A DNA stretch of 64,000 nucleotides from Fibrobacter sp. UWEL (GCF_900142535.1 NZ_FRBE01000007.1:62001-126000), one strand, 5' to 3'; counted from the stretch's first letter, positions 15,038 to 46,096 are shown. The notes: a model not told the origin generated them from the letters alone. Made by a program: numbers and translations.

Positions 15038-15053
15038 TGCAAAATGCGTGCCA
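15038..15053 (-). promoter_or_regulatory. Sigma-54 promoter of the acetolactate synthase gene
   Basis: On the minus strand the sequence reads TGGCACGCATTTTGCA, that is TGGCAC-N5-TTGCA with GG at -24 and GC at -12. The start site calculated from the GC doublet is 15027, one base before the ATG at 15026, implying a leaderless message. Confidence 0.75.
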
Positions 15054-15294: not shown

Positions 15295-15310
15295 TGGCAC
15301 GGCTTTTGCA
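15295..15310 (+). promoter_or_regulatory. Sigma-54 promoter of the urea transport/urease operon
   Basis: TGGCACGGCTTTTGCA matches the -24/-12 consensus completely. The calculated start is near 15321, giving a leader of about 22 nt that contains AAGGAG before the urtA ATG. Sixteen bases are identical to the promoter at 26125. Confidence 0.9.
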
Positions 15311-17627: not shown

Positions 17628-17656
17628 CGGTTTAACGAAGGATTTTAGGTACAACA

Positions 17657-18730: not shown

Positions 18731-18739
18731 GGAGTTTTT

Positions 18740-19570: not shown

Positions 19571-19578
19571 GAGATTGT

Positions 19579-20292
19579 ATGCTGTATTTAAAAGACATGG
19601 ATTCTTATTATGGCGAAAGCAAGGTTATCGAAGGATTGAACCTTGAAATTCCCAAGGGAAAGATCGTCAGTCTGATTGGTCGAAATGGCGTGGGCAAGAG
19701 CACCACTTTAAAAAGCATTATGGGCCTGGTCAAGACAGGTCCTAAGACCTCCCTTATGTTTGACGGTAAGGAAATTGCCGGTTTGCCGGCTTATGAGCGA
19801 GTCCGTCGTGGCATTGGTTACGTCCCTCAGGGCCGCGACATTTTTCCGCAGATGACCGTCCTTGAAAATCTGGAATTAGGCGTGCAGCCCATGCTTGGAC
19901 GCGGCGAGAAGGTGGGAAAGAACAAGGTTCCCGAATACCTTTACGACCTGTTCCCTATTCTTCCGAAGTTCGCCAAGCGCAGGGGTGGTGACCTTTCCGG
20001 CGGTCAGCAGCAACAGCTGGCAATCGCCCGCGCCCTAGTTCAAGATCCCAGGATCTTGATTCTGGACGAGCCTACCGAAGGTATCCAGCCTTCCATCATT
20101 AACGATATTGGCCGGGCCATCCGTAAGATCAACGAATGGAAGGGCATTACCGTGTTGCTGGTGGAACAGTATCTGGATTTCGTCATGGAAAACAGCCACT
20201 ACATCAACATTATGGAAAAGGGTAACATCATTTTCCATAAGGAAACTTCTCTCTGCGACAAGGCAGAAGTCCAAAAGTTAATGACGGATTAA
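19579..20292 (+). CDS. urtE: Urea ABC transporter ATPase UrtE
   Basis: The 237-aa LivF-type ATPase has Walker [11 protein letters not shown], signature [15 protein letters not shown], Walker [16 protein letters not shown], and switch region [10 protein letters not shown]. It follows urtD by 8 bp and ends 2 bp before the urease gene, so transporter and enzyme belong to one transcript. Confidence 0.93.
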
Positions 20293-20294
20293 TT

Positions 20295-20975
20295 ATGCAT
20301 TTAACTCCTAGAGAAATCGAAAAGTTGATGCTGCATTACGCAGGCATTGTCGCTAGCGAAAGACTGCAGCGCGGTTTGAAACTGAACCATCCGGAAGCAA
20401 TCGCCTATATCAGCAGCAAACTTTTGGAACTTGCTCGCGATGGCAAGACCGTGGCAGATTTAATGTCTGAAGGCCGCAAGATGCTGACCGCGGAGCAGGT
20501 GCTGGACGGTGTAGCGGAAATGATTCACGAAATCCAGCTGGAAGCCACCTTCCCCGATGGCACCAAGCTAGTGACTGTTCACGACCCCATTCCCACCACC
20601 GGGAAAATTATTCCTGGCGAAGTCCTTGTGGAAGACGGATTCATCGAGCTGAACGCCGGCAAGAACACTATAACTCTGGACGTAACCAATACGGCGGATC
20701 GTCCCGTTCAGGTAGGCTCCCATTTCCATTTCTTCGAGGTCAACAAGAAGCTGGATTTCAACCGCACCGCAGCTTACGGCATGCGTCTGGATATTCCCGC
20801 TGGTACCGCAGTCCGTTTTGAACCGGGCGAGACAAAGAAGGTGAATCTGGTAGAAATCGGCGGCACACGGGAAGGATACGGATTGAACGGTCTTGTGGAA
20901 GGCCTGATGGACGATGAAAAGATTAAATCTGCCGCATTGAACAAAGCTTCTGCAGAAAAATTCGCAGGCGTATAA
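20295..20975 (+). CDS. ureAB: Urease gamma/beta subunit fusion
   Basis: The 226-aa protein joins the gamma subunit (residues 1-100, [25 protein letters not shown]) and the beta subunit (about 102-226, [46 protein letters not shown]). The same fusion is known from Helicobacter UreA. Together with UreC it forms the structural core of urease, which hydrolyses urea to ammonia and carbamate in the cytoplasm. No ribosome-binding site is needed if the 2-bp gap to urtE gives coupling. Confidence 0.95.
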
Positions 20976-20988
20976 AGGCGAGAGTTTT

Positions 20989-22701
20989 ATGTACAAGATT
21001 TCTAGAAAAGATTACGCTCAAATGTACGGCCCCACCGTTGGAGACCGCGTCCGTCTTGCGGATACTTCCTTGATTGTGGAAGTAGAAAAGGATTATTGCG
21101 TCTACGGCGACGAAGCAAAATTCGGTGGTGGCAAGTCCCTGCGCGATGGCATGGGCCAGGCCGTTCCCTTCAAGGATGAAGAATGCCTGGACACCGTGAT
21201 TACAAGCGCTCTCGTTATTGACGCCACTGGAATTTTCAAAGCAGATATTGGCATTAAGGACGGTCTGATTGCAGGTATTGGCAAGGCAGGCAATCCCCAC
21301 ATGATGGACGGTGTCACCCCCGGTATGATTATCGGGGCGTCAACAGAAGCAATCGCCGGCGAAGGCCTGATATTGACCGCTGGCGGTATCGATACCCACA
21401 TCCACTTTATTTCACCTACCCAGGTGCGTACCGCCCTCTATAGCGGCGTCACCACCATGGTGGGCGGCGGCACGGGGCCTGCAGATGGCACCAACGCCAC
21501 CACTTGTACGCCGGGCGCGTTTAACATTCACAGAATGCTGGAAGCGGCAGAAGATCTGCCGGTCAATTTGGCGTTCTTAGGAAAGGGAAACGGTTCCAAT
21601 CCGGAAACCTTGAGAGAGCAGATTCGTGCAGGGGCTGCGGGCCTGAAGTTGCACGAAGACTGGGGTTCTACACCCAAGGCTATTGACACTTGCTTGGGCG
21701 TGGCTGACGAATTTGACGTTCAGGTTTCCATCCATACGGACACATTAAATGAAGGCGGCTTCGTGGAAGATACCATCTCAGCCTTCAAGGGACGCACCAT
21801 TCACACCTACCATACGGAAGGTGCAGGCGGTGGACACGCTCCCGACATTATCCGCGCAGCCGCCTTCCCCAATGTTCTGCCCTCCTCCACAAACCCCACC
21901 ATGCCCTTCACGAAAAATACCATCGATGAGCATCTGGACATGTTGATGGTTTGCCACCATCTGGACAAGAACAACAAGGAAGACGTCGCCTTCGCTGATT
22001 CCCGAATCCGTCCGGAGACCATCGCCGCTGAAGACGTTCTTCACGATATGGGCATTTTCTCCATGATGAGTTCTGACTCTCAGGCCATGGGCCGCGTAGG
22101 CGAAGTCATTACTCGCACTTGGCAAACTGCGGACAAGATGAAAAAGCAGAGGGGCACTCTGGATACGGACTGCGAACGCAACGACAATAACCGCGTCAAA
22201 CGTTACGTAGCCAAGTACACCATCAATCCCGCTATCACTCACGGAATTTCAAAATACGTAGGATCCGTGGAAGTAGGCAAGATTGCAGACCTGGTTTTGT
22301 GGCGCCCCGACATGTTCGGCGCCAAACCCGAAATGATTTTGAAATCTGGATTTATCTGCGCTTCCAAAATGGGAGATGCCAACGCCAGCATTCCAACGCC
22401 GGAGCCGGTGGTGTATACCGACATGTTCGGCGCTCACGGAAAGGCTCTGGCAAAGACCTGCATTACTTTCGTTTCTGAATACGCCTTTACCCACGGCATC
22501 AAGGAAGAACTGGGACTTTCAAGAACCATCCTTCCCGTAAGCAACTGCCGCAACATTGGGAAAAAGGACATGGTCCATAACGATCGAATTGCAAAGCTGG
22601 AAGTGGATCCAGAAACCTATACCGTTAAAGTGGATGGAGAAAGAATTACCTGTGAAGCCGCCACAGAGCTTTCTCTTGCCAGAAGATATTTCCTCTTCTA
22701 A
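20989..22701 (+). CDS. ureC: Urease alpha subunit (nickel catalytic subunit)
   Basis: The 570-aa protein has all key residues of UreC: the HIH metal motif in [12 protein letters not shown], the carbamylated Lys220 (GLKLHEDWG), the histidines in [10 protein letters not shown] and GAGGGHAPD, and the flap with Cys322 in MVCHHLD. The length is usual for the family. An AGAG-rich site precedes the ATG. It needs UreEFGD for nickel insertion, all encoded just downstream. Confidence 0.97.
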
Positions 22702-22717
22702 AACAAAGGAGTCCAAA

Positions 22718-23224
22718 ATGATTGCCGATAAAATTTTGGGAAACCTCTACTGGGAAAAGAGTCCCATCCAGAAGAAGATTGTCAGTGTTCCTTTTGAATG
22801 GTTCGAAACAGACAAGCATCGCATCTTGAAAATTGCTGATGACGGAACCGAATTGGGAATTCAGATTGACGAAACTCTTTCTGATGGAGACGTTCTTGCC
22901 GTAACCCCCCAAGCCATTTACGCCGTCCAAATCAAGAAAAGCAAGCTGATTCGCATTGCCGTAGATTCCATGGAAGAAATGGGACGTCTTGGTTTTGAAT
23001 TGGGCAATAGGCATTTGTCCCTGCAGATCACCTGCAAGGATATTACCATTCCCTACGACGAGCCCACCTATCTCTATCTGATTCGCATTGGTTTCTACCC
23101 CCAGGTTGTGGAAGCGGTCTTTACCGATTACATCGTCTGCAAGGCACACGGAGCTACCCACAGCCACACTCATGAACATGAGCACCATCATCATGATGGT
23201 GAGGGCCATCATCACGAGCACTAG
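22718..23224 (+). CDS. ureE: Urease accessory nickel metallochaperone UreE
   Basis: The 168-aa protein starts at ATG 22718, with AAAGGAG upstream; longer in-frame starts lie inside ureC. It has the two UreE domains and a strongly histidine-rich C-terminus (about residues 144-168, with HEHEHHHHDGEGHHHEH), which binds nickel and can store it. It delivers Ni to the UreG/UreF/UreD complex. Confidence 0.93.
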   Translation: MIADKILGNLYWEKSPIQKKIVSVPFEWFETDKHRILKIADDGTELGIQIDETLSDGDVLAVTPQAIYAVQIKKSKLIRIAVDSMEEMGRLGFELGNRHLSLQITCKDITIPYDEPTYLYLIRIGFYPQVVEAVFTDYIVCKAHGATHSHTHEHEHHHHDGEGHHHEH

Positions 23225-23227
23225 AGT

Positions 23228-23920
23228 ATGCTGGCTACCTTGCGGATGATTCAAGTCTGCGACAGCCTCTTTCCCATTGGAGCATTCACGCTTTCCAATG
23301 GGCTGGAGACTCTTATCGCAAACAGAACCATAACCAACGGCACTTCTCTGGAAGAATACGTTTCCAGCTTTTTAAAGATCCTGCCCTACAATGACCTTGG
23401 GGTCATGACCCTCAGTTATGATCACGCCCAAGACATGGACTACATAAAAAATCTGGATCGTTTTTCCATGGCATTGAAAGCGCCAGAAGAAGTACGTACT
23501 GGTTCTAGAAAACTTTGCAGTCGATTTCTCAAAATCTATCAGGAATTTGAGGGAGCCTCCCAACAGGGCTACCCTTCTCTGGATACATACCGAGAGGAAG
23601 TTCTCAATACAGGCTCTTGCATCGGGAACCACTCCATTGCCGTAGGCTTATTCGCAAAGGATATCGGCCTCAGTAAGGACGAGGCCGCTAGCATTTACAC
23701 CTACAGCCTGCTGAACGCCATTGTGACCAACGGAGTCAAGATGATTCCCCTCAGCCAGATGGTGGGTCAGAAAATCCTCAGCGAAAGCCAGAAGAAAATT
23801 CTGGAAGCCGTTCAGCGCGCATCCACCCTCGAAATCGAGGACCTTGGGGTAGGCGGCACTGGCATAGATATTGCAGGGATGAAACACGAAGAACTTTATT
23901 CACGACTTTACATGAGTTAA
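23228..23920 (+). CDS. ureF: Urease accessory protein UreF
   Basis: The 230-aa all-helical protein begins MLATLRMIQVCDSLFPIGAF, followed by TLSNGLETLI, the conserved UreF opening. It has GSCIGNHSIAVGLFAK and the C-terminal QMVGQKIL segment. UreF bridges UreD and UreG in the nickel-loading complex. The gene starts 3 bp after ureE. Confidence 0.92.
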   Translation: MLATLRMIQVCDSLFPIGAFTLSNGLETLIANRTITNGTSLEEYVSSFLKILPYNDLGVMTLSYDHAQDMDYIKNLDRFSMALKAPEEVRTGSRKLCSRFLKIYQEFEGASQQGYPSLDTYREEVLNTGSCIGNHSIAVGLFAKDIGLSKDEAASIYTYSLLNAIVTNGVKMIPLSQMVGQKILSESQKKILEAVQRASTLEIEDLGVGGTGIDIAGMKHEELYSRLYMS

Positions 23921-23926
23921 TGTTTT

Positions 23927-24535
23927 ATGAGTTACGTTAAGATTGGCGTTGGAGGCCCCGTAGGTTCCGGAAAGACCGCATTGATCGAAAGGCTCACCCG
24001 CAAGATGAGCAAGGAATACAGCATTTGCGTGGTCACCAACGATATTTACACCAAGGAAGATGCTGAATTTTTGATCAAGAATTCCGCCCTACCCGCCGAA
24101 CGCATCGTTGGCGTAGAAACAGGCGGATGCCCCCACACCGCCATTCGCGAAGACTGCTCCATGAACCTGGAAGCCGTGGACGAAATGGCCCACAAGTTTC
24201 CCGACGTGCAGATCATTTTCATTGAAAGCGGTGGCGATAACCTGTCCGCTACTTTCAGCCCCGACTTGGCTGACGCAAGCATTTACGTCATTGACGTAGC
24301 CCAGGGGGAAAAGATTCCCCGCAAGGGTGGTCCCGGCGTCATGCGTTCCGATCTGCTGGTCATTAACAAGACGGACTTGGCCCCGCTAGTAGGCGCAAGC
24401 TTGGAAGTGATGGCCCGAGATTCAGAACGGATGCGAGAAGGCCGCAAGTTTTTATTCACGAACCTCATGAGCATGGATGGCGTAGACGAAGTCATCGCAT
24501 GGATCAAGAAGGCTGTTCTATTCGAAGGCGTTTAA
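23927..24535 (+). CDS. ureG: Urease accessory GTPase UreG
   Basis: The 202-aa SIMIBI GTPase has P-loop GPVGSGKT (10-17), the [15 protein letters not shown] region, the metal-binding [14 protein letters not shown] (Cys-Pro-His), [13 protein letters not shown], and [11 protein letters not shown]. It drives GTP-dependent nickel insertion into urease. Confidence 0.95.
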
Positions 24536-24579
24536 CCCGCAGAATCAAACCCGCAAAAAGTATTATCAAAGGAGTCCAT

Positions 24580-24942
24580 ATGGCATGTTTTGTAGTCCCC
24601 GTTGCCGAAGCTTTAATTACCACCGCAGTCACTCTCATTGTGGAAAAGAAGATGCCTGAAAAGGCCCCGCTGCAGGCTCCCCGCCGCCTGTCCAAGCTGC
24701 TGTGGGGCGGTTCTGCCCTGCTTGCTTTCGAGCATTTCTGGCACGGCGAAATCCAGCCTTTCTATCCCTTCCTTACGGCAGCTCAGGATCCGGAATCTAC
24801 TCAAGTCATGCTTCACGAAATGTCTACCGTAGGCGTGGGCATGGCCTGCATGGTCACGTTAGCGTGGGCGGCGTCCTTAATCTTCCTAAAGACCAAGAGT
24901 AAGGCAAGAGCCGCTCATGAAGTTCATTCCGAGGAGGCGTAA
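24580..24942 (+). CDS. Small membrane protein of unknown function in the urease cluster
   Basis: The 120-aa protein starts at ATG 24580, with AAAGGAG upstream. It shows about three hydrophobic segments (about 3-24, 40-55 and 86-106) and several histidines (EHFWHGE, LHEMST, and near the end). It is placed after ureG, and its stop is 1 bp from the next membrane protein. It is not recognisable as UreI/AmiS (about 190 aa, six helices), nor as a known nickel permease. Its position hints at a role in urea, ammonia or nickel passage, or in membrane attachment of urease (inference). Confidence 0.75.
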   Translation: MACFVVPVAEALITTAVTLIVEKKMPEKAPLQAPRRLSKLLWGGSALLAFEHFWHGEIQPFYPFLTAAQDPESTQVMLHEMSTVGVGMACMVTLAWAASLIFLKTKSKARAAHEVHSEEA

Positions 24943-24943
24943 A

Positions 24944-25255
24944 ATGACCTTGCTTATCACCGCAATTGCAGCCATCATCTCTTCCCTCCTGTGGTACAAC
25001 AGCATGACCAAGCAGGGCAAGGACACCATGAAGTATTCCACCCTCTGCTACATGTTCTGGGGCGCATCCCTCATGTGGTTTGTGGACGCCATTGCCGAAT
25101 ACGCTGAGCTTGGCGCTGAATACTTCACACCCGCTGCAGCAGACATGCTGAACGACGCCTTCCTGGGCGTTTCTGTAGTAGCCCTAGCTTTAATACTGTG
25201 GCTCGCACGCCTTCTCTGGTCTGCACGAGATCTATGCAGAGCACACTCCGCATAA
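24944..25255 (+). CDS. Second small membrane protein of unknown function in the urease cluster
   Basis: The 103-aa protein starts at ATG 24944 behind GAGGAGG. It has about three predicted helices (1-19, 32-50, 70-92), with a conserved-looking MFWGASLMWFVDAIAEY segment containing an acidic residue in the membrane. It overlaps ureD by 22 bp. Three plus three helices with its neighbour would match the helix number of a UreI protomer, but no sequence similarity is evident. Confidence 0.75.
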   Translation: MTLLITAIAAIISSLLWYNSMTKQGKDTMKYSTLCYMFWGASLMWFVDAIAEYAELGAEYFTPAAADMLNDAFLGVSVVALALILWLARLLWSARDLCRAHSA

Positions 25256-26007
25256 AGACCTGCTTTCGAAACGGGTGCACCGAAATAGAGGACGCCTTCT
25301 ACACGTCCCCTTACAAAGTGATGCACCCCTTTCGCAATGGAACTCATTCCGACATCATGATGATGGCCGCCTCCGCCGGACTCCTTGGGGGCGACCATTT
25401 CATGTTGGATCTTGATTTTGGCACCGGAAGTAACGCCACATTTCTCTCCCAGAGCTACGAAAAAGTTTTTAATACTGACGGGAAAATTGCCTCCAAGGAC
25501 ATTTCCATCCAGGTGGGGCCAGAGGCTAAAATCTGCTACATGCCCTATCCTGCCATCCCCTTCGCGGGAAGCAATTACCAGAGCAGGGCCACCGTCAAAA
25601 TCCACCCTACAGCCACCTTCATTTACGCCGATATTTTCACCTGCGGTCGCACCGGAATGGGTGAATTTTTTGCTATGGAAAAGTTCCAGAGCAAGAGCCT
25701 TTTTTACGTGGGAGACCAGCTGGCCTTTGCCGATCATACCCTCCTGAATCCCAGGGAATTCGACTACACCAAAATCGGTTTCTGGCAGAACTACACCCAC
25801 AACGGGATGATGTATATCTACAGCCCAGACAACGAATTTTTAAATCACTTAAAGATCTTCGTCCGGAATAATAGTCCTGTAATGAATGGGGTCGTTGGGG
25901 TGACCAACGCCTATAAGGGAGTGGTGATCCGCACCCTGGCCATGAGGGGCGAAACCATCTGGGATTTTTTTGAGTCCGTCAAGGAGTTTTACATACAAGA
26001 AATGTAA
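25234..26007 (+). CDS. ureD: Urease accessory protein UreD (UreH)
   Basis: The 257-aa protein has UreD features: NGTHSDIMMMAASAGLLGGD, a QSYEKVFN segment matching the conserved Q-(S/T)-E-K-(V/I)-F, YMPYPAIPFAGSNY, and GRTGMGE. UreD is the scaffold that holds UreF and UreG on apo-urease. The chosen ATG (25234) lies inside the preceding gene; a longer form from 25198 is possible. As in Helicobacter, ureD is last in the cluster. No terminator follows it. Confidence 0.88.
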   Translation: MQSTLRIKTCFRNGCTEIEDAFYTSPYKVMHPFRNGTHSDIMMMAASAGLLGGDHFMLDLDFGTGSNATFLSQSYEKVFNTDGKIASKDISIQVGPEAKICYMPYPAIPFAGSNYQSRATVKIHPTATFIYADIFTCGRTGMGEFFAMEKFQSKSLFYVGDQLAFADHTLLNPREFDYTKIGFWQNYTHNGMMYIYSPDNEFLNHLKIFVRNNSPVMNGVVGVTNAYKGVVIRTLAMRGETIWDFFESVKEFYIQEM

Positions 26008-26124: not shown

Positions 26125-26140
26125 TGGCACGGCTTTTGCA
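26125..26140 (+). promoter_or_regulatory. Sigma-54 promoter of the ATP-grasp/transglutaminase operon
   Basis: TGGCACGGCTTTTGCA is identical to the urtA promoter. The start site calculated from the GC doublet falls on 26151, the A of the ATG, so the message would be leaderless. An inverted pair TTCTGTA (26019-26025)/TTACAGAA (26038-26045) lies about 110-130 bp upstream. Confidence 0.88.
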
Positions 26141-26150
26141 CTAATGGAGT

Positions 26151-28649
26151 ATGAACTGTGTGGAAACAGAAAATTCGTTTTTAAAGTCCCTTTCGGCATT
26201 GTCGAGGGAGGAGTTTGAGCACCGTTGCAGGCGCTTGCATAATGTTCTGGACGAGAACGATCTTTCGTCCAGTTCCAGCAGCTGCCACAAGGGCACGGAC
26301 CCCATCCCCCTGGTAATTTCGCCTGAGGACTGGAGCCGCCTGGAAGCAGGAGTGGCTCAGAGGGCAAGGCTTTTCAACGCCTTGGCAGAAGACATTTATG
26401 GCGATCAAAAGCTGTGGAAAGAGGGCAAGTTGCCCGCCGCCCTTTTGTTCGCGAACCCGGACTTCATGCAAGTGGCCTGGAAGGTAAAACCTGCAGGCGG
26501 CATATTCGTGAATTTATCCTCTACGGATGTGGCCCGGCTGGAAGACGGCTCCTTTGTAGCCATCGCAGACCACTTGCAAGTACCGGAAGGTTTAGGCCGC
26601 GCCTTGGAAAACCGCATTGGGGTCAGCCGCGCATTCCCGGAACTTTTCCGCAGTATGCGTACGGAACGCCTGGCAGGGTTCTTCAAGAAGTTGCTGGATG
26701 GCCTTAACGCCATGCATGAGGATATTAACGCCAAGGGCGCTCATGGCGACAGCGGAAAGGTCGTCTTGCTGGCCCCGGGACCTGAAAATCCCCGTCGAGG
26801 CGAAGACGCCATGTTGGCCCGCTACCTAGGGATCCCGTTGGTAGAAAACGACGACCTGGCAGTGCGTAATCTGCAGGTCTACATGAAGACTCTCATGGGT
26901 CTGAAGAAGATTGGAACCATCTTCCGTCGGGTGGAAGACGGCATGTGCGACCCGCTGGAACTTCGCATCGATAGCGGAGAAGGGGCAGTAGGCCTCATCA
27001 GCACGGTGCGAGCAGGAAACGTAGCCATCGGAAACTTCCTGGGCACAGGCGTCCTGGAGACGCCTATGTTCAAGCCGTTCCTGCCGGAAATTTGTCGCGA
27101 GCTTCTTGGCGAAGAATTGCTCCTGCCCGATGTGGAAACCATCTGGATGGGCAACGCAGCTGAAGCAGAACGAGTTTTGGCAGAGCCTGAAAAGTGGATT
27201 TTTAAGAAGGCCTTCAGGGACGCGGGTAGTTTGAAGGAACAGGAAGTCAAGGCATATGCTTCCATGACTACCACGGCTCAGCTGGCCTTGCTACAGACCA
27301 TCGAAAACAGCCCTGAACAATGGGTTGCGGAAAAGTCTGTGGAAGTGGCAACCGTTTCCGCCTATCGCGGAGGCTCCAGCAGCAATGGCGCCGCAGATTT
27401 TGAACCGGCAATTTCACTGATGCGTCTGTTCGCCGTGAACACCGCGAAGGAAACCTCGGTGATGCCTGGTGGACTGGGAATTTTCCAGTTCATCGATAAG
27501 AACTTGGCACAAAGTGCCGCAGCAAGTATTTCAAAGGCCCACATCCTTGAAAGCGATGTTGGAGAAAAGGACATCTGGGTGCTTTCTGAAAGACCTGTTG
27601 CCCACTTCTCTCTCCTGGCCCCGGCCGACCAGGCTATAACACCTTCTCGAGCGGGCGGTGATTTGCCCAGCCGCGCTGCTGAGAACTTGTTCCGCCTCGG
27701 CCGGGACCTGTCCGCTTCCAACATGATGGCTCGTATTGCAAGAGGAATCGCAGTACGACTGTCTGATGAATCCTGGACGGAAATGCCGGAATTGCCTTGG
27801 ATCTTGAAGGCTGGACTTTCTGACGAATCTCTGGCCCGCATGGCCCAGGATCCGGAAAACGCATTACGTTACTTCGTCCTAAGAAAGGACAACAAGAACG
27901 GAATGCAATGTGCATTAGCGGAAATTCACGATCTCGCAGTGCAGATTCGAGATCGCATTTCCGAAGACTTGTGGTTGTACCTGAACGGGTTCGGCGTTGC
28001 AGAAATGCCGGCGGGGGCAGGTGCCGCAGCGCTTTTGCCTTACTTAAAGGCAGTCTTATCAGATAGCGCTGCTGTGGCCGGCCTCGCTGCGGACTCCATG
28101 ACTCGCGGCCATGAGTGGCGCTTTCTAGAACTTGGTCGACAGATCGAGTGCGCCACTCGCACCTTGCAGCTGATTAAAAACCTGCTGTCTACGGCCCCCG
28201 CCGATGAAACGACGAACCTACGTTTGCTGCAGGCAGTGCTTGAAATTGGTGACGGCCTCATGACTTACCACCGTCGCTATGGCGGCCGCCTGCAGGTAGT
28301 GCCGGTTTTGGATTTGCTTCTGTCCGACGAATCCAACCCGCGAAGCGTTGCCTATCAGGTGGCAAAGCTCCGTGAAGCTACAGCCCACCTGCCGGGAAAC
28401 GATCAAGGTGAAGCCACCTTCTCGCCGCTGGACCGTGAACTTATGCGAATACTCACGGACCTGCGCCTGGCCAACATGGAAAAGCTTGCTGAAACTGTAG
28501 GCTACAACAGGGAGAACTTAACAAAGCTAGTAGACGAACAACTTGAAGCCATTGAACGAGTCGGTGAAATCATCAGCAGACTCTATCTGAGCCACGCCCC
28601 CCGCGCAGGCATTTTCCACGCCACCACTACCGAAGTGTCGGAGGTTTAA
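26151..28649 (+). CDS. Circularly permuted ATP-grasp protein fused to an alpha-E domain
   Basis: The 832-aa protein has an N-terminal circularly permuted type 2 ATP-grasp region (about 50-480, with ISPEDWSRLEAGVAQRA, LLAPGPENPRRGEDAMLARY, FRRVEDGMCDPLELR) and a C-terminal alpha-helical alpha-E domain (about 505-820, starting LPSRAAENLFRLGRDL). Compared with the stand-alone copy at 29745, the EDNMRxPSG motif reads ADHLQVPEG (139-147), and the glycine loop SGGYGM is not visible. This copy may therefore be catalytically altered or structural. Family members are predicted amide or peptide ligases that act on an unknown substrate. It is first in a four-gene operon with its own sigma-54 promoter, directly after urease. 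Confidence 0.85.
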   Translation: MNCVETENSFLKSLSALSREEFEHRCRRLHNVLDENDLSSSSSSCHKGTDPIPLVISPEDWSRLEAGVAQRARLFNALAEDIYGDQKLWKEGKLPAALLFANPDFMQVAWKVKPAGGIFVNLSSTDVARLEDGSFVAIADHLQVPEGLGRALENRIGVSRAFPELFRSMRTERLAGFFKKLLDGLNAMHEDINAKGAHGDSGKVVLLAPGPENPRRGEDAMLARYLGIPLVENDDLAVRNLQVYMKTLMGLKKIGTIFRRVEDGMCDPLELRIDSGEGAVGLISTVRAGNVAIGNFLGTGVLETPMFKPFLPEICRELLGEELLLPDVETIWMGNAAEAERVLAEPEKWIFKKAFRDAGSLKEQEVKAYASMTTTAQLALLQTIENSPEQWVAEKSVEVATVSAYRGGSSSNGAADFEPAISLMRLFAVNTAKETSVMPGGLGIFQFIDKNLAQSAAASISKAHILESDVGEKDIWVLSERPVAHFSLLAPADQAITPSRAGGDLPSRAAENLFRLGRDLSASNMMARIARGIAVRLSDESWTEMPELPWILKAGLSDESLARMAQDPENALRYFVLRKDNKNGMQCALAEIHDLAVQIRDRISEDLWLYLNGFGVAEMPAGAGAAALLPYLKAVLSDSAAVAGLAADSMTRGHEWRFLELGRQIECATRTLQLIKNLLSTAPADETTNLRLLQAVLEIGDGLMTYHRRYGGRLQVVPVLDLLLSDESNPRSVAYQVAKLREATAHLPGNDQGEATFSPLDRELMRILTDLRLANMEKLAETVGYNRENLTKLVDEQLEAIERVGEIISRLYLSHAPRAGIFHATTTEVSEV

Positions 28650-28651
28650 AA

Positions 28652-29527
28652 ATGCCTATCTATCAGATCGATCACGAAACTGTTTATGATTATTGCGAGC
28701 CTGTTCTCTATAGTAACCACTTGGCTCACATGCTTCCGCGAATTGTCGGTCGACAGAACTGGATTAGCCACACCATCGAAGTGGAACCCAATCCAACTGT
28801 AAAGCAGGAACGACTGGACATTTTCGGAAACCGCGTCCTAGCCTTTAGTATTGAACAGGAACATACACACTTTAGATTCAAGACTACCGGTATTGTTGAT
28901 GTCCGCGGAGAGGAACCTCCCAAGGAAGGAGCAACAATGCCCTGGGAAGAAGTGGCAAAACTTCTGGAACGTCCCAACGATGCCGAAACATTGGACGCCT
29001 CCATGTACGCCTACGCCTCCCCCTTCGCAGGTTATGACGAATCTGTCAGGAACTATGCGCTGGAAAGTTTTGAACCGGGCCGCCCCATTTTTGATGCCGC
29101 CAAGGAATTGATGACTCGCGTCTATACGGATTGCAAGTACACTCCCGGCGCCACCAGGATTGGAGCCCAGCCTCAAGAAATTCTTCGAGGCCGCAAAGGC
29201 GTCTGCCAGGATTTCGCACACTTGATGATTGGTTGCTTAAGGTCTCTGAAATTGCCTTGCCGCTACGTCAGTGGATACCTGCGGACTCATCCGCCTGAAG
29301 GTCAGCCAAAGCTGGTGGGTGCCGATGCCACGCATGCTTGGGCAAGCACCTACATTCCCGGCTACGGTTGGGTGGAACTGGATCCCACCAACAACGTGCT
29401 GGGCGGCGAGGAACACATCATCCTTGCCTGGGGAAGAGACTTTGGTGATGTAAGCCCCCTGAAGGGAGTCATTACCGGCGGCGGCGACCACACGCTGAAA
29501 GTGGGCGTGAACGTTGATTTGAAATGA
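28652..29527 (+). CDS. Transglutaminase-like cysteine protease family protein
   Basis: The 291-aa protein has the bacterial transglutaminase N-terminal domain (about 1-80) and a transglutaminase core with the triad Cys185 (GRKGVCQDFAH), His228 (GADATHAWAS) and Asp244 (VELDPTNN). It lacks a signal peptide, so it is probably cytoplasmic. It follows the fused ATP-grasp gene by 2 bp. Proteins of this type accompany ATP-grasp and alpha-E proteins in many genomes and are thought to cleave or transfer the amide bonds made by the ligase; the substrate is unknown. Confidence 0.88.
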   Translation: MPIYQIDHETVYDYCEPVLYSNHLAHMLPRIVGRQNWISHTIEVEPNPTVKQERLDIFGNRVLAFSIEQEHTHFRFKTTGIVDVRGEEPPKEGATMPWEEVAKLLERPNDAETLDASMYAYASPFAGYDESVRNYALESFEPGRPIFDAAKELMTRVYTDCKYTPGATRIGAQPQEILRGRKGVCQDFAHLMIGCLRSLKLPCRYVSGYLRTHPPEGQPKLVGADATHAWASTYIPGYGWVELDPTNNVLGGEEHIILAWGRDFGDVSPLKGVITGGGDHTLKVGVNVDLK

Positions 29528-29590
29528 ACGATGAACAATTAACAATGAATAATGAATGAAGGTTAGTTGAGTCACAACATTCTTATCAAG

Positions 29591-29635
29591 AGTCATTCTG
29601 AGCGGAATCGCGAAGCGATGAAGTCGAAGAATCTA
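29591..29635. repeat. Dispersed palindromic repeat copy (long, diverged)
   Basis: This copy runs from AGTCATTCTGAGCGG to GAAGAATCTA, the family ends, with an internal extra hairpin ATCGCGAAGCGAT. It is 45 bp long against about 28 bp for the compact copies. Confidence 0.65.
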
Positions 29636-29683
29636 AAAAGAATTAAAAACAAAGGCTGAATAGAAAGAACAAAACAAACAACG

Positions 29684-29711
29684 CTAGATCCTCGCCTTCG
29701 CGAGGATGACA
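29684..29711. repeat. Dispersed palindromic repeat copy
   Basis: The copy reads CTAGATCCTCGCC ... GGATGACA and forms a near-perfect hairpin with a small loop. It is the closest match to the copy embedded in bioW. Confidence 0.85.
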
Positions 29712-29744
29712 TAGTACGGAAAAACACACAAGGAAAAACAGAAC

Positions 29745-31238
29745 ATGAAATTTGGAAACTACAATACCGAAGGCTTCTACGACGAGCTTTGCCTTCCTGA
29801 TGGGACTCCCCGCCCGGCGGCAGAGCCGTTGATTACCAGAATCAACGAACTTCCCGAAGGTGAATTGCAGCGTCGCCAGACGGTTGCAGAATCCGCTTTC
29901 TACGACAATGGCATCACCTTCGCCGTCTATGGAAACAAGGAAGGTAAGGACAAGATTATCCCCTTCGATGTCATTCCCCGTATCGTCAGTGCCGCCGACT
30001 GGAAGCATCTGGAAGCAGGCCTCAAGCAGCGTACCGAAGCATTGAACTGCTTCTTGACAGACATCTACAACGACCGCAAGATTTTACGGGACAAGGTTGT
30101 TCCTGAAAGTCTCATCAACACCTGCACCGCTTACCGCCCCCAGATGGAAGGCTTTGTGCCGCCCAAGGGAATCTGGGCACACATTACCGGTACCGATCTT
30201 GTACGCGATACCGACGGCACCTTCTATGTGCTGGAAGACAACATGCGTTGTCCCAGTGGTATTTCCTACGTGCTGCAGAACCGCCAGATTTTAAAGCGCA
30301 CCTTCCCTCAGGTTTTCAGCCACTGCTCCATCCGCCCGGTGGATGAGTACTGCACTCGTCTCCGCAAGGCTCTGGAATACTTGGCAGAAGGCGTCGAAAA
30401 TCCCAGAGTGGTGGTGCTTACTCCGGGCATCTACAACTCCGCCTACTACGAACATTCCTATCTGGCACAGCAGATGGGCGTAGACTTGGTCACCGGCGAC
30501 GACTTGGTAGTGCAAGACAAGAAGGTCTTTGCACGTACTACCCGCGGCCTCAAGCAGGTTCACGTAATCTACCGTCGCGTGGATGATGAATTCCTGGATC
30601 CTCAGGTGTTCCGCCCGGATTCTTGCTTGGGTGTACCCGGTTTGATCGAAGCCTACAAGGCTGGAAACGTGGCTCTCGCCAACGCCCCTGGCTGCGGTGT
30701 GGCCGACGACAAGGCTATCTACACTTTCGTTCCTCAGATCATCAAGTACTACCTGGGCGAAGAAGCCATCATTCCTAATGTACCCACCTTCGTTTGCGAA
30801 AACCCCAAGCACATGCAGCACGTCATCGACCATATTGAAAACATGGTGGTGAAGGCAGCCAGCGAATCCGGTGGCTACGGCATGCTGGTTGGCCCCAAGT
30901 CAACCAAGGAAGAATGTGAAGCCTTCAAGCAGAAGATTATTGCAAACCCCCGTAACTACATCGCTCAGCCCATGATTTCCCTGAGCCGTGTGCCCTGCAT
31001 TGTGGATGGCGGTTTTGAAGGTCGTCACGTAGATTTACGCCCGTATATTGTACAGGGTAAGGAGACCTACATCCTTCCCGGTGGCCTCACCCGCGTAGCT
31101 CTTCGCAAGGGATCCATCGTGGTGAACAGCTCTCAGGGCGGTGGCTGTAAGGATACTTGGGTCATCGCTGAAAACGAGAAGGCTCCAGAACTCGGCCAGG
31201 CCAGACAATGGATGGAACAACAACAACAGCAACAATAG
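29745..31238 (+). CDS. Circularly permuted type 2 ATP-grasp protein (stand-alone)
   Basis: The 497-aa protein is a full member of the DUF404/DUF407 ATP-grasp family: YVLEDNMRCPSG (about 161-172), VVVLTPGIYNSAYYEHSYLA, IYRRVDDEFLDPQVF, the loop VVKAASESGGYGMLVGP (about 368-384), and the C-terminal VALRKGSIVVNSSQGGGCKDTW. The C-terminus ends in a short glutamine run. It is expected to join an amine to a carboxylate with ATP; the substrate is not known. It pairs with the alpha-E gene 10 bp downstream. Confidence 0.9.
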   Translation: MKFGNYNTEGFYDELCLPDGTPRPAAEPLITRINELPEGELQRRQTVAESAFYDNGITFAVYGNKEGKDKIIPFDVIPRIVSAADWKHLEAGLKQRTEALNCFLTDIYNDRKILRDKVVPESLINTCTAYRPQMEGFVPPKGIWAHITGTDLVRDTDGTFYVLEDNMRCPSGISYVLQNRQILKRTFPQVFSHCSIRPVDEYCTRLRKALEYLAEGVENPRVVVLTPGIYNSAYYEHSYLAQQMGVDLVTGDDLVVQDKKVFARTTRGLKQVHVIYRRVDDEFLDPQVFRPDSCLGVPGLIEAYKAGNVALANAPGCGVADDKAIYTFVPQIIKYYLGEEAIIPNVPTFVCENPKHMQHVIDHIENMVVKAASESGGYGMLVGPKSTKEECEAFKQKIIANPRNYIAQPMISLSRVPCIVDGGFEGRHVDLRPYIVQGKETYILPGGLTRVALRKGSIVVNSSQGGGCKDTWVIAENEKAPELGQARQWMEQQQQQQ

Positions 31239-31247
31239 GAGAGAATC

Positions 31248-32177
31248 ATGTTAAGTAGAGTTGCAAATTCCATTTATTGGCTTGCCCGCTATATTGAACG
31301 TGCAGAAAATGTCGCCCGCGGCATTGACGTGAATCTTCAGCTTCAGCTGGACTTGCCTGGCGAAGAACGTCCCTGGGAACCGGTAATCCAGACCGCCGGC
31401 AACGCCGATGAATTCTTCAAGAAGTACGCTCACGTTTCTATCGAGAACGCCTTGATGTTCCTCACCTTCGACAAGGAAAATCCCAGCAGCATCATCTCTT
31501 GTGTGGCTGCCGCCCGCGAAAACGCCCGCTGCGTTCGCGAGAGAATTTCCTCCGAATTGTGGCTAGCCATCAACCAGTTTTACCTAAAACTGAACGAACC
31601 TGATATGCCCCAGCAGGTATTGGCATCTCCCCACACGTTCTACAGAAGCGTGAAGGAATTCAGCCAGCTTACCGCAGGTATCATTCAGGGCACCATGAAT
31701 CATGACGTTGCCTGGAATTTTACCCATCTAGGCACGCTGCTGGAACGAGCCGACCAGACTTCCCGAATTCTGGATGTGAAGTACTACATCCTCCTTCCGG
31801 ATGTGAGCATGGTGGGCATGGCCATGGATACGGTGCAGTGGAACGCGGTTCTTAAGAGCGTGGGCGCATACGAAATGTTCCACCGCCGCAATTCCAACGT
31901 AACACCCCATAACGTTGCGGAATTTCTCCTCCTTACGGAAGACTTCCCCCGTTCCCTTCGTTACTGTTTGGAAAAGGCGGAACAAGTTCTCAAGAATATT
32001 GCATTCCCCGTAAAGAGCAATGCAGAATCCATCCGTATGTTGGGCAAGCTCCGTTCCGATGTGGCATTCACCACCATTGACGAAATCATCAATGATGGTC
32101 TTCACGAACGTATCGAAAAAATTCAGACACGCCTGAACGAGCTGGGTAATCAAATCTGGAAGGATTTCTTCTGCTAG
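31248..32177 (+). CDS. Alpha-E domain protein (DUF403)
   Basis: The 309-aa protein is all-helical and starts with the family signature MLSRVANSIYWLARYIERAE, followed by NVARGIDVN. It has conserved acidic and arginine-rich helices (AARENARCVRERISSELW, LGTLLERADQTSRILDVKYY). Alpha-E proteins occur only beside or fused to these ATP-grasp proteins and are thought to be partner subunits. It is homologous to the C-terminal domain of the 26151 gene, so the operon encodes the same pair once fused and once separate. Confidence 0.9.
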   Translation: MLSRVANSIYWLARYIERAENVARGIDVNLQLQLDLPGEERPWEPVIQTAGNADEFFKKYAHVSIENALMFLTFDKENPSSIISCVAAARENARCVRERISSELWLAINQFYLKLNEPDMPQQVLASPHTFYRSVKEFSQLTAGIIQGTMNHDVAWNFTHLGTLLERADQTSRILDVKYYILLPDVSMVGMAMDTVQWNAVLKSVGAYEMFHRRNSNVTPHNVAEFLLLTEDFPRSLRYCLEKAEQVLKNIAFPVKSNAESIRMLGKLRSDVAFTTIDEIINDGLHERIEKIQTRLNELGNQIWKDFFC

Positions 32178-34230: not shown

Positions 34231-34366
34231 TTTTCTAAATCCCAAAATTGATGACTTTGTCAACAACCTTATCAAAGGTAGAAAAATCATTTTGTAATCC
34301 ATTCCAAAACTTTTTACGCAAGTTTTTCACTATATGTAACCCTTTACATTTTATGCATTGCATTTC

Positions 34367-34398
34367 TGCAGTTTTCTAAAAAAACATGCAGTTTTCTA
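34367..34398. promoter_or_regulatory. 12-bp direct repeat upstream of the allophanate hydrolase gene
   Basis: TGCAGTTTTCTA occurs at 34367-34378 and again at 34387-34398, a spacing of exactly 20 bp, about two helical turns. This looks like a paired activator site. The remainder of 34231-34366 is A/T rich, and no sigma-54 consensus is present. Confidence 0.4.
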
Positions 34399-34424
34399 TT
34401 GCCAAAAAAGATTCACAGTGCTAC

Positions 34425-34446
34425 TTTATAAAAGTACTTTACAAAG
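34425..34446. promoter_or_regulatory. Candidate operator shared with the carboxylase operon
   Basis: Two adjacent near-palindromes, ACTTT-ATA-AAAGT and ACTTT-AC-AAAGT, occupy 34424-34447. On the opposite strand the block at 46180-46201 has the same outer parts (TTTATAAA and CTTTACAAAG with a 4-nt variable spacer plus one C). It lies about 62-83 bp before the allophanate hydrolase ATG. Confidence 0.5.
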
Positions 34447-34507
34447 TTTAATTCGAGTCGAGACGCCAGGAAGACTGCAGCCGGCCGCACCCTGCAAGGA
34501 GTCCGCT

Positions 34508-36316
34508 ATGGCACAACTTGATCTTAGAATTTCAAGCCTCCGCTCTGCTTATGAAAAGGGCGAAATCACTCCCCGTGAAGTTGTACAAAACCTCCGCGAT
34601 GCCATCGAAAAGGCTCCCAAGGAAATCTGGATTGCAAAGACCAGCAAGGAACAACTGGAAAAATATTTGACCGCTTTGGAAGACGTTGCCGACCGCGCAA
34701 GGAGCGCCGCAGGTTTCAAGATTCCCGCAGACAAGCCCCTATTCGGCATTCCATTCGCCATCAAGGACAACATTGACTGCGAAGGTATGGAAAGCACTTC
34801 CGCCTGCCCCGCCTACGCCTACATGCCCAAGAAATCCGCCTTCGTGGTAGAGCGCCTCATTGAAGCTGGCGCCATTCCCATGGGCAAAACCAACATGGAC
34901 CAGTTCGCCACCGGCCTGGTGGGCGTGCGCTCCCCTTACGGAAGCATCCCTAACCGCTACGCCCCGGAATATGTTTCTGGGGGAAGCAGCAGCGGTTCTG
35001 CAGCCGCCTTGGCTTATGGGCTTTGCAGTTTTTCGCTGGGCACAGATACGGCAGGATCCGGCCGCGTCCCCGCCGCCTTCAACAAGCTTGTAGGCGTGAA
35101 GCCTACCCGCGGTTTGCTTAGCACCAGCGGAGTGATTCCCGCCTGCCGTAGCCTAGACTGCGTTAGCATTTTTGCATTGGACAATAGCGACGCCCGCTAC
35201 GTCTTGAACATCGCCGGTGCCGAAGATTCCGAAGACGCCTACTCCCGCGAAGCTCCGTGGAACTCTGCTTCGGACAGCGCAGGCTCCGCAGCCCGCCTCC
35301 CCGAAAACTGGACCTTCGGTGTCCCCGAAGAAAGCGAGCTGAACTTCTTTGGAAACGAGGGTTACAAGGCCGCCTTCTACCGCGCCGTGGAAGCTTTTGA
35401 AAAAGCAGGCGGCACCAAGGTCACCATCCACTTTACTCCATTCCTAGAAGCAGCGCGCCTGCTTTACGAAGGCCCCTGGGTTTTTGAACGTTACGATGCA
35501 GTGGGCAAGTTCATCGAAGAACATCCCGACGAAATCTTCCCCGTCACCAAGGAAATCATTAGCCCCAAAACAACACCCCACCCCTCCGAAGTTTTCGCCG
35601 GATTCCACGCCCTGCAAGCCAAGAAGAAAATTGCCGACCTTGAATTTTCAAAGGTGGACGTTTTGCTCACCCCCACCGCAGGCACCATCTACAAGACCGC
35701 AGAAGTAAACGCCGACCCCATCAAGCTGAACAGCAACCTGGGCTATTACACCAACTACATGAACCTGCTGGATTATTCCGCCCTGGCCATCCCCGCCGGC
35801 ATGGCCACCTGCAAGGACTCCAGCACCGACACAGGTTCCATCCAGTTGCCCTTTGGCGTTACCATCGTAGGCCATGCCTTTGACGACTTCAAGCTTTTGG
35901 ATGTGGCCGAAAAGGTCACCCCCTTCCTTAGCGAAAAGATTCCCCTGGCAGTTTGCGGAGCCCACCTGAAGGGCGAACCCCTACACTATCAATTGCAAAC
36001 CGCCGACTTCTTGGGTGCCACCGAAACCGCCCCGGAATACAAGATGTACGCCTTCAAGGACGGCAACATTCAAAAGCCAGCCATGATCGCAGGCAACAGC
36101 AGTTTCTACGTAGAACTTTACGCCCTCACCCCCGAGGAATTCGGCAAGTTCGCCGCCGCTATTCCTGCCCCCCTGGGAATCGGCAAGATCAAGCTTTCCG
36201 ACGGTCGCGTGGTCCCCGGATTCATTGGCGACGGCACCATCTCGGTCATGGCCTTTGGCGGTGCCGCTGTCGACATTTCGGAATTCGGAGATTGGCGTAA
36301 GTACATCCACAAATAA
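34508..36316 (+). CDS. atzF: Allophanate hydrolase (amidase-signature enzyme)
   Basis: The 602-aa protein starts at ATG 34508, with AAGGAG upstream. It has an amidase-signature domain (about 1-440) with Lys86 (GIPFAIKDN), the GGSSSGS loop (158-164) and the nucleophile Ser184 (GTDTAGSGR), and the C-terminal domain typical of allophanate hydrolases (about 515-600, MYAFKDGNIQKPAMIAGN ... LGIGKIKLSDGR ... GDGTISVMAFGG). It converts allophanate to ammonia and CO2, the second half of the urea- or guanidine-carboxylase route. It is convergent with, not part of, the carboxylase operon. Confidence 0.92.
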   Translation: MAQLDLRISSLRSAYEKGEITPREVVQNLRDAIEKAPKEIWIAKTSKEQLEKYLTALEDVADRARSAAGFKIPADKPLFGIPFAIKDNIDCEGMESTSACPAYAYMPKKSAFVVERLIEAGAIPMGKTNMDQFATGLVGVRSPYGSIPNRYAPEYVSGGSSSGSAAALAYGLCSFSLGTDTAGSGRVPAAFNKLVGVKPTRGLLSTSGVIPACRSLDCVSIFALDNSDARYVLNIAGAEDSEDAYSREAPWNSASDSAGSAARLPENWTFGVPEESELNFFGNEGYKAAFYRAVEAFEKAGGTKVTIHFTPFLEAARLLYEGPWVFERYDAVGKFIEEHPDEIFPVTKEIISPKTTPHPSEVFAGFHALQAKKKIADLEFSKVDVLLTPTAGTIYKTAEVNADPIKLNSNLGYYTNYMNLLDYSALAIPAGMATCKDSSTDTGSIQLPFGVTIVGHAFDDFKLLDVAEKVTPFLSEKIPLAVCGAHLKGEPLHYQLQTADFLGATETAPEYKMYAFKDGNIQKPAMIAGNSSFYVELYALTPEEFGKFAAAIPAPLGIGKIKLSDGRVVPGFIGDGTISVMAFGGAAVDISEFGDWRKYIHK

Positions 36317-36466: not shown

Positions 36467-39400
36467 TTACATGGGCTTTACGGCAAAGAGGCATTGACCG
36501 GAGCGGATTTCGCCACCTTGCTTTCCAAAGACCTGAGTAACGACACCGTCTTCGTCGGCAACCACCGGGATTTCGGTCTTCATACTTTCCAAAATAGCCA
36601 GGGTATCGCCAGCCTTGAACTTGGCGCCCACTTCAGAAACAACTAGCTTCCAGAGGGAACCAGCCACAGGACTGTACACACCTTCTTCGCCGTCGGCCAA
36701 GGTCACCTCTGCAGCGGGGGCTGCGTCAGCGCTATGGCTTTCGAAAGTGAACTGACCATTTGCAATCCAACGCTGCTTTTCTTCTTCGAAGGCGTTCTTG
36801 CGCTTGGTTTCAAAGGCATCGATGGTCGTTGCGTTATCTGCCAGGAACTTTTCGTATTCGGTAATGTCGAAGGAACTTTCCACGATCTTTACGTGGAACT
36901 TGCCAGCGATGAAATCCTTGCGCATCTGCAGAAGTTCATCGGCACCCACTTCGTAGTACTTGACCACGTCAAAGAAGCGGAGCAGGTAAGGCAAGGTGAA
37001 GTCGCTTGTCTTTTTGAAACGATTCCACATCTGGACGGTACGGCCAACGAACTGATAGCCGCCGGGACCTTCCATGCCATAGACGCACATGTATGCGCCG
37101 CCAATACCCACAGCGTTTTCGGGAGTCCAGGTACGAGCCGGGTTGTACTTGGTGGTCACCAGACGATGGCGAGGATCCAGCGGAGTAGCCACAGGAGCGC
37201 CCAGATAAACGTCGCCCAGGCCCATGACCAAGTAATCGGCGTTCATGACAATGTTCTTCACATCGGCAATGGAATCCAGGCCGTTAACGCGGCGGATGAA
37301 TTCGATGTTGTTGGGGCAGCACCAAGGTGCACCGGGGCGAACGGTGGTCACGTACTTTTCGATAGCCACGCGAGTCTGGGGGTCGTCCCAAGAAAGGGGC
37401 AGGTAAACTGTACGGGTGGGAACCTTGGTGACCTTGTTCTTCTTCAGGTGTTCGGCAAGGTCAGCAAGCTTTGCAAGCATTTCACCCTGACGGATTTTTG
37501 CAATATCGTAATGGATCTGGATAGAGCGAATACCCGGGGTAACGTCAATGACCAGGTCGGCCATCTGTTCCTTAACAGCCAGCATCCAGGCGTGAGCGGT
37601 AAAGCGGAGGCGAAGGTCAATAATGGCAGGGCCAAATTCAACCAGCACATAGTTGTCACCATCGGCGCGGACAACGATGTGATCCATTTCATCGGCGCTA
37701 TCCTTGTGGAATTCGGCAATAATGGGAGTGACCACAGGAGCGGCAACCAAAGCAGGAATTGCAGCGGAAGCAGCAGCGACATTTGCAAGGTTTGCTTCAC
37801 GAGCCAAGCGAATTTCTTCGGCGCTTTCGGCAGTGAGGGGAACGAACTTGACGCGGTCACCACTGCGGAGCTGACCCATCTTCCAAAGTTCAGAAGAAAC
37901 GATGGTAACAGGGCAAGCAAAGCCACCCAGGCTGGGGCCATCTACGCCCAAAATAATGGGCATGTCGCCAGTAAAGTCTACGGTACCAATGGCGTAGGCG
38001 TTATCGTGAAGGTTGGAAGGATGAAGGCCTGCTTCACCGCCATCGGGGCGAGCCCACTTGGGCTGAGGTCCAATCAAACGAATGCCAGTTCTAGAAGAGT
38101 TGTAATGAACTTCCCAATTAGCGGCAAAGAATTCATCAATGTCTTCCTGAGTCAAATAGTCAGGAGCACCATGAGGGCCGTACATCACGCCAATTTCCCA
38201 CTGGGTAGAAATCTGCGGAAGAGCGGCTTCTGCAGGAACCACAGGTTCTGTAGCAATGGCGTTACCAATGTGGAGGATATCGCCAGCAGCCAAAGCGCGA
38301 CCGCCGTGTCCACCGAAACCGCCCAGGGTAAAGGTAGACTTGCTTCCCAGATAATCGGGAACGTCAATACCACCGCGAATAGCCAGGTAAGCACGCTGAC
38401 CCATCTTGGTAATACCGAACTTCAGCACATCACCATCGTGAACTTCAACAGGAGTGTTCTTGGAGCATGCAGCACCGTTCAGCTTTGCAGGGAAATCACC
38501 GCCCACCCATGCAATCACCGTATCGGTATGGAAGGCAAGGGAGCAGCCGGAAAGAGTCATTTCGATACCGGCGGCGTCATCGGCGTTACCCACAATCTTG
38601 TTGGCAAGGCGGAAACTGTAGTTATCCATAGGACCGCTAGGAGGAATACCTACATCCCACAGATTCAAACGACCCGGATAATCCTGGATGGTTGTCTGGA
38701 GGCCCGGAGCCAGCACTTCAAAAATCTTGTTTTCGTACTTGTAATCGTTCAGGATCCAGGTAGAGACCTTACCGTTAATAAAGTCTTCCATTTCAAGGAC
38801 ATCCTGCAAAAGCTTGATGTTGGTTTCAAAACCACAGAGCTTGACCTGTTCCAAAACCTTGCGAGCCTTGGCAATGTTGTCGTCGCGATCGTCGCCGGCC
38901 ACAATCACCTTTGCCAACAGAGGATCGTAGAAGGCACTGACTTCGGTACCGCGAGAAACCCAGGTGTCTACGCGAATGCCTTCGGGGAAGGAAACTTCGG
39001 TCAACAGGCCACTGGAGGGGCGATAGTTCTTGCCCGGATCTTCGGCGTATACGCGAAATTCCATGGCATGGCCCTTGGGGGTAAACTGGGCACCGATTTC
39101 GAAGGGGCGTCTCCCTGCGGCCTGTTCGATCATCCAGCGCACCAGATCCACACCGAACACCGTTTCGGTGACGCCATGTTCCACCTGCAAACGGGTATTC
39201 ACTTCCAGGAAGTAGAACTTGTCATCCTTGGCATCGTAAATAAATTCAACGGTACCTGCAGAGCGGTACTGAACACCCTGTACCAGGCGGAGGGCAGAAG
39301 CATGGAGGGCTTCACGAGTAGCCTGCGGAAGGCAAGGAGCCGGAGTTTCTTCAACAACCTTCTGGTTACGGCGCTGCACGGAGCAATCGCGTTCACCGAG

Positions 39401-40066: not shown

Positions 40067-40159
40067 TTCTTGTTCCTTTTTCAGTCACGCGATTTTTCGC
40101 GTCCTAATTCGGAACCCGCCTTGCATTCACTCGAACGCCGCGGAATTTCCACACAACAA

Positions 40160-40990: not shown

Positions 40991-40999
40991 CAGTCCCTC

Positions 41000-46080: not shown

Positions 46081-46096
46081 TGCAAATGCCGTGCCA
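46081..46096 (-). promoter_or_regulatory. Sigma-54 promoter of the transporter/DUF1989/carboxylase operon
   Basis: The minus strand reads TGGCACGGCATTTGCA, a full -24/-12 match. The calculated start is near 46070, giving a 32-nt leader with a ribosome-binding site before ATG 46038. Confidence 0.9.

Follow-up and report, generated by a model that had tools for sequence, protein, structure and literature searches.

Why would a bacterium keep the same kind of ligase pair twice in one operon, once as a fused protein and once as two separate proteins, beside its urease genes? The question is raised by four genes in a window of 64,000 nucleotides (contig 7, 62001-126000, of the 3.53-Mb genome of Fibrobacter sp. 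UWEL, 99.98% complete), whose positions are used below. They encode a fused circularly permuted (CP) ATP-grasp and alpha-E protein, a transglutaminase-like protein, a stand-alone CP-ATP-grasp and a stand-alone alpha-E protein, and in Fibrobacteraceae this operon represents a widespread CP-ATP-grasp/alpha-E/transglutaminase system. This system spans many bacterial phyla and is induced by nitrogen starvation wherever measured; no published product was found for it in the literature searched. The best explanation, which we rate somewhat above even, is a sigma-54-driven nitrogen operon with one active pair, the separate one, and with the fused protein as its non-catalytic partner. Most is learned from three new points: the copies are asymmetric, Fibrobacteraceae lack both the proteasome-like Anbu and DUF2126, and the sigma-54 start is predicted to be leaderless. 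If one paralogous pair is taken as the catalyst and its counterpart as a pseudo-enzyme, it becomes clear which protein an assay should start from and which should be supplied with it. With only four genes, lacking Anbu and DUF2126 and yet holding both paralogues, the small Fibrobacter system allows induction and metabolite differences to be tested directly.

Unequal ATP-grasp copies

An earlier note on this DNA had placed four open reading frames here (Table 1), and all were found, each with strong Pfam matches: CP_ATPgrasp_2 (7.6e-111) and Alpha-E (5.4e-55) in the fused gene, Bact_transglu_N (1.7e-20) and Transglut_core (1.2e-22) in the transglutaminase-like gene, CP_ATPgrasp_2 (8.6e-167) in the separate ATP-grasp and Alpha-E (2.9e-100) in the separate alpha-E. 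NCBIfam assigned a family to none of the four proteins. The assignment of the operon to a predicted amide-forming class is supported. The note also described the same ligase pair twice; the arrangement stands, but the copies are not equivalent, for the fused one lacks the ER motif as well as residues that are invariant in the ATP site.

In a joint alignment of fused and separate ATP-grasps, with residues numbered after the separate enzyme, E164, N166, K323, D430 and the glycine loop (G376, G377 and G379) occur in every separate enzyme (100%), but across phyla the fused family mostly has other residues there. Fibrobacteraceae fused proteins have additionally lost R450, Y175, Y234, H237 and the first ER motif; changes in the fused gene include E164 to A or S, N166 to H or Y and R450 to I or M, with the glycine loop and D430 gone. 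Among columns conserved in other phyla, the operon's separate ATP-grasp keeps 140 of 143 and the separate alpha-E 32 of 33, and the fused protein keeps 76 of 98. Fibrobacteraceae fused proteins lose 20-23 of these 98 columns per genome, other fused relatives at most nine. The Asp...Glu-x-Asn pattern (D151, E164, N166) is probably similar to the metal ligands of glutathionylspermidine synthetase; a profile search intended to transfer the metal-ligand positions from that enzyme yielded no second structure, and the literature searched offered nothing of use on those residues.

The tree splits the ATP-grasps into a fused and a separate clade (support 100/100), with the operon's fused protein inside the former; by this measure the two are ancient paralogues, and a recent tandem duplication is rejected by the same split. 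The fused gene is nonetheless kept under purifying selection (dN/dS ~0.05-0.1, with synonymous sites near saturation), and the protein still has R71, R155, D235, R259, R260, N295, R425, K473 and D474. Of 40 genomes that have a fused gene, 39 also have a stand-alone alpha-E, often at another locus, and the separate pair is found without the fused gene in some genomes. Residue losses, purifying selection and co-occurrence together are what a conserved pseudo-enzyme partner would show. From these sequences we infer that the separate ATP-grasp/alpha-E pair is catalytically competent and that the fused protein is not, and the fused protein would form a complex with the separate pair.

Both ATP-grasps could instead be active, making successive or opposite-end couplings toward one peptide-like product, as the earlier note supposed. 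The fold is present in both, selection maintains both and the fused copy retains several conserved residues, but the losses shared by most of the fused family, and those added in Fibrobacteraceae, make this reading doubtful. Regarding the fold, the sole solved structure recovered by sequence search is 3n6x (3.8e-161), a near-full-length match to the separate ATP-grasp; this is Methylobacillus flagellatus Mfla_0391, a “putative glutathionylspermidine synthase” whose name is itself a prediction, its function being unproven there too. A model of the fused protein (pLDDT 82) also matches 3n6x best (TM 0.79 to target), followed by eukaryote-type glutathione synthetases. The alpha-E model is all-helical (pLDDT 90.7) and matches nothing in the PDB at E <= 0.001 (the best, at 0.51, is a designed barrel), so that the fold suggests no function, and the sequence search gave chance matches only. 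A fold confidently predicted and unmatched by solved structures makes alpha-E a good structural target.

The transglutaminase-like protein has an intact Cys185-His228-Asp244 triad, as first described, identical in all 23 Fibrobacter copies and in 63-65 of 65 other copies. At 80 fused-gene loci from many phyla, the genes most often stand in the order ATP-grasp, alpha-E, DUF2126, fused gene, transglutaminase-like gene, with DUF2126 at 60 of the 80. Anbu had been named as the frequent companion; for the fused gene that companion is DUF2126. Anbu is indeed absent, the search that had been proposed (PF00227) giving no match in the genome or in the sampled Fibrobacter genus, and DUF2126 (PF09899) is absent throughout sampled Fibrobacteraceae. 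Degeneracy simply from the loss of DUF2126 found no support: other loci without DUF2126 in view lose few columns (median 1, some contigs being short).

The sigma-54 promoter and nitrogen genes

What would switch on such an operon? The -24/-12 promoter 5' of the fused gene contains a 16-mer, TGGCACGGCTTTTGCA, that occurs in the genome only here, 5' of urtA and 5' of the gene for glutamine synthetase III (GS III). The claim that operon and urease share an identical promoter therefore holds for the 16-mer itself but is refined in one respect: the second copy precedes the urea transporter gene urtA, so that urease follows 5.7 kb further downstream within that series of genes. Genome-wide, the pattern TGGCAC-N5-TTGCW has 19 sites and the reversed-pattern control none. 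Downstream of these sites is a nitrogen group, comprising gltB (GOGAT), PII-amtB, GS III, urtA, this operon, a urea-carboxylase operon and an acetolactate synthase gene, and a mostly stress-related group with Hsp70, Hsp90, Hsp20, an RpoH-like sigma factor, an AAA protein, SpoVG and others.

Genomes of the phylum sample are given G-numbers below (G000 being the window's own) and the loci or sequences compared are given L-numbers. The sigma-54 site lies 5' of the fused gene in all 19 genus or family sequences holding the region, except G079. In urease-free relatives the operon still has this promoter and adjoins a divergent acetolactate synthase gene. The promoter common to nitrogen genes, the clean control and the conservation in relatives support nitrogen-linked sigma-54 control as first proposed, and make nitrogen control of the operon very likely; in Fibrobacter sp. 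UWEL it would be activated by nitrogen limitation.

Such control has precedents. Nitrogen limitation induces the relatives in Pseudomonas putida (PMC8050072, PMC5666114), where Anbu and CP-ATP-grasp genes are up ~16- to 22-fold (log2 3.99 and 4.44) on nitrate versus ammonium, along with ureD and urtA (PMC8050072). In Burkholderia cenocepacia a cluster of DUF404/407, DUF403 and transglutaminase-like genes belongs to the sigma-54/NtrC regulon, with urease (PMC5491218), and Anbu-type proteases of Proteobacteria are reported to be under sigma-54 control (PMC12316311). In marine metagenomes, urea-metabolism domains correlate with those of the system (PMC3597751). Since nitrogen control is published for proteobacterial relatives, the principle has been described before; what is new is its extension to Fibrobacterota. 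Some rumen and hindgut Fibrobacter grow with urea as nitrogen source (PMC6291624).

Within the window, the exact sigma-54 sites, four in number, all fall in a nitrogen island at 13-46 kb, which holds the acetolactate synthase-like gene, urtABCDE, urease with its accessory genes, the four-gene operon, an allophanate hydrolase gene (34358-36316) and the urea-carboxylase operon, the last including three DUF1989 proteins and an NMT1-type ABC transporter. The urea-carboxylase operon and allophanate hydrolase may use guanidine rather than urea. The stress-type targets (L002, L009, L010, L014, L015, L018) raise the possibility of a sigma-54 stress regulon in this genome.

With the C of TTGC counted as -12, the predicted sigma-54 start of the operon coincides with the annotated ATG of the fused gene (26125-26151). 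This ATG falls at +1 to +3 in 15 of 19 sequences and at +70 in the other four, all of one sub-clade; it is invariant in the compared group, and other start codons are not. The acetolactate synthase-like gene is arranged in much the same way (15026-15053; Table 1). A start at or near the ATG predicts an mRNA of the fused gene that is leaderless, or nearly so, in most relatives.

A candidate activator site, TTACA-N5-TGTAA, was first spotted in the fused-gene promoters of relatives and 5' of urtA, and was scored within 200 bp upstream of sigma-54 sites, with P by dinucleotide shuffle. With no or one mismatch it precedes GS III, PII, gltB, urtA, the acetolactate synthase gene, the NMT1 gene and this operon (P <0.001 to 0.025), and other sigma-54 targets, including heat-shock genes, have it only at 2-4 mismatches (P >0.08). 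The acetolactate synthase gene and urtA are divergent and share the site that lies between them, which therefore counts as one observation. Fused-gene promoters have it at no more than one mismatch in 8 of 18 and at three or more in 5 of 18; with these five promoters, and with the operon's own copy overlapping the end of ureD, the site is suggestive only. Exact copies number 13 genome-wide against 7 in the control, a modest enrichment, so that the evidence is one of position only. They cluster near gltBD and the gene of a GAF-NifA-like activator. It is a possible nitrogen activator site of Fibrobacter; copies were seen on G000 contigs 2, 12 and 32, at 15184-15198 and 15229-15243 in the window, and at the nitrogen-type sigma-54 promoters of GS III, PII-amtB and gltBD. 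A search for NtrC as the activator was negative: no regulator of the genome reaches the NtrC cut-off. Two GAF-NifA-like activators are present, one of them near gltBD with its TTACA-N5-TGTAA sites.

Proposed function and its rivals

In the explanation preferred here, sigma-54 would turn on the operon together with ammonia-assimilation genes and urea/guanidine-type nitrogen-scavenging genes. The stand-alone ATP-grasp would activate a carboxylate as acyl phosphate and, with the stand-alone alpha-E, join the acyl group to an amine, and the transglutaminase-like Cys-His-Asp protein may trim, transfer or hydrolyse the resulting amide. The fused protein would be a conserved non-catalytic scaffold or regulator of this ligating unit, working in Fibrobacteraceae without the large DUF2126 transglutaminase that is its partner elsewhere. 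A broader proposal, held tentatively and a little short of even, is that the fused family across phyla is a pseudo-ligase and obligate partner of the stand-alone pair, the duplicated system then being a single enzyme with a dead copy built in, and that in Fibrobacteraceae DUF2126 has gone and the dead copy, expressed as leaderless mRNA from a conserved sigma-54 promoter, has decayed further and yet been kept.

Several points weigh against the preferred explanation. The putative roles of the residues are taken by analogy with glutathionylspermidine and glutathione synthetases, and an ATP-grasp of pseudo-enzyme appearance could use other residues. We know of no biochemical activity for any alpha-E or fused member. 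The activator site is missing from five of the 18 promoters and overlaps ureD here, and no NtrC emerged. In Yersinia, the ATP-grasp only released phosphate from ATP, and the proteins of the Anbu operon showed no specific interaction (PMC6376114).

Could the product instead be an amide-linked nitrogen store or protein tag, built when nitrogen is ample and dismantled when it is short, with the transglutaminase-like enzyme as releasing hydrolase? The nitrogen regulation, the link to urea genes both in this window and in marine metagenomes (PMC3597751) and the Cys-His-Asp hydrolase or transferase adjoining the ligase would suit it. However, ligase and hydrolase share a single promoter of nitrogen-starvation type, which would place synthesis of the store exactly at nitrogen scarcity, contrary to ordinary storage logic, and no store or tag is reported for any relative in the literature searched. 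We regard this as improbable; scavenging or turnover at nitrogen shortage is likelier than store building.

The operon lies next to the urt-ure genes, as the earlier note stated, and its relation to urease varies among relatives. Alpha-E genes occur in 18 genus genomes of the phylum sample and urease alpha in eight, seven of these with alpha-E genes. Urease genes are immediate neighbours of the operon in five genus genomes (G000, G011, G075, G097 and G110, the last with ureD and ureG next to the operon at a contig end) and, in different order, in G079, of another genus. The two are far apart in G007 and G041, and adjacency is probable in G081, where a contig break interrupts it. Urease was not found in 10 of the 18 genus genomes with alpha-E genes, G015 has urease and no alpha-E, and none of the loci outside Fibrobacter relatives among the 80 fused loci has urease within 10 kb. 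The expected link in relatives thus stands for the adjacent cases and fails for the ten; because many genomes have the operon without urease, it is one of shared regulation and a shared island, not of obligate urease function. An accessory role, for example in urease maturation or incorporation of urea-derived ammonia, would account for the adjacency, but this is never seen outside Fibrobacter relatives, the frequent neighbour is an acetolactate synthase-like gene, the urease genes have their own UreDEFG, and urease-free genomes retain operon and promoter, so that this reading is largely refuted and very improbable.

Related systems and other features

The Anbu operon (P. putida PP_2685-2688, Yersinia bercovieri) likewise unites the stand-alone ATP-grasp, alpha-E and transglutaminase-like families and is published as nitrogen-induced (PMC8050072, PMC5666114), whereas this genome and all sampled Fibrobacter lack Anbu, and the operon has the fused paralogue instead. 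The DUF2126 cluster, found in Planctomycetota, Verrucomicrobiota, Acidobacteriota, Pseudomonadota and Thermodesulfobacteriota, shares both paralogues and the transglutaminase-like family (~40-50% identity), with the fused gene adjoining the transglutaminase-like gene. It differs in that Fibrobacteraceae have the order fused, transglutaminase-like, ATP-grasp, alpha-E, without DUF2126, and a uniquely degenerate fused protein. Burkholderia cenocepacia I35_5080-5083 (DUF404/407, DUF403 and two transglutaminase-like genes) resembles the operon in its families and in sigma-54 control with urease and urea transport (PMC5491218); it belongs to another phylum, and its activator is NtrC, for which no regulator of the Fibrobacter sp. 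UWEL genome passes the cut-off.

Within Fibrobacterota, DUF2126 is retained by two genera (g12, g13) and an Anbu-type operon is present in at least two genomes of a third (g11), but neither occurs in Fibrobacteraceae. The canonical Anbu-type order was found in another Fibrobacterota genus (G025, G100); in g11 (L091, L098) a divergent Anbu-like gene lies directly 3' of alpha-E. The Fibrobacteraceae separate ATP-grasp clusters with Rubripirellula (Planctomycetota) and not with other Fibrobacterota (98/89; L086, L154), hinting at horizontal transfer of the cluster.

Table 1. The operon, its promoter and related sites in the window
Feature	Position	Strand	Remarks
Fused CP-ATP-grasp and alpha-E protein, 832 amino acids	26151..28649	+	Predicted pseudo-ligase; ATG at +1 of sigma-54 promoter
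Transglutaminase-like protein	28652..29527	+	Cys185-His228-Asp244; signal peptide not evident
Gap of 217 bp with dispersed REP-like hairpin element at 29690-29710	29528..29744	+	
Stand-alone CP-ATP-grasp	29745..31238	+	Family-invariant residues all present; predicted active ligase
Stand-alone alpha-E protein	31248..32177	+	ER motifs present
Sigma-54 (-24/-12) promoter TGGCACGGCTTTTGCA of the operon	26125..26140	+	Exact match
Candidate activator site ATACAAGAAATGTAA (TTACA-N5-TGTAA, 1 mismatch)	25993..26007	.	Overlaps 3' end of ureD; shuffle P 0.012; tentative
Sigma-54 promoter of urt-ure genes (15344-26007)	15295..15310	+	16-mer identical to the operon's
Sigma-54 promoter of acetolactate synthase-like gene (13386-15026)	15038..15053	-	ATG at +2
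Sigma-54 promoter of ABC transporter/DUF1989/urea-carboxylase genes (36467-46104)	46081..46096	-	

The gap that parts the transglutaminase-like gene from the stand-alone ATP-grasp differs in length among relatives. The REP-like hairpin within it, CCTCGCCTTCGCGAGGATGAC, recurs at 11600-11620 and 59104-59124, giving three copies in the window where none is expected.

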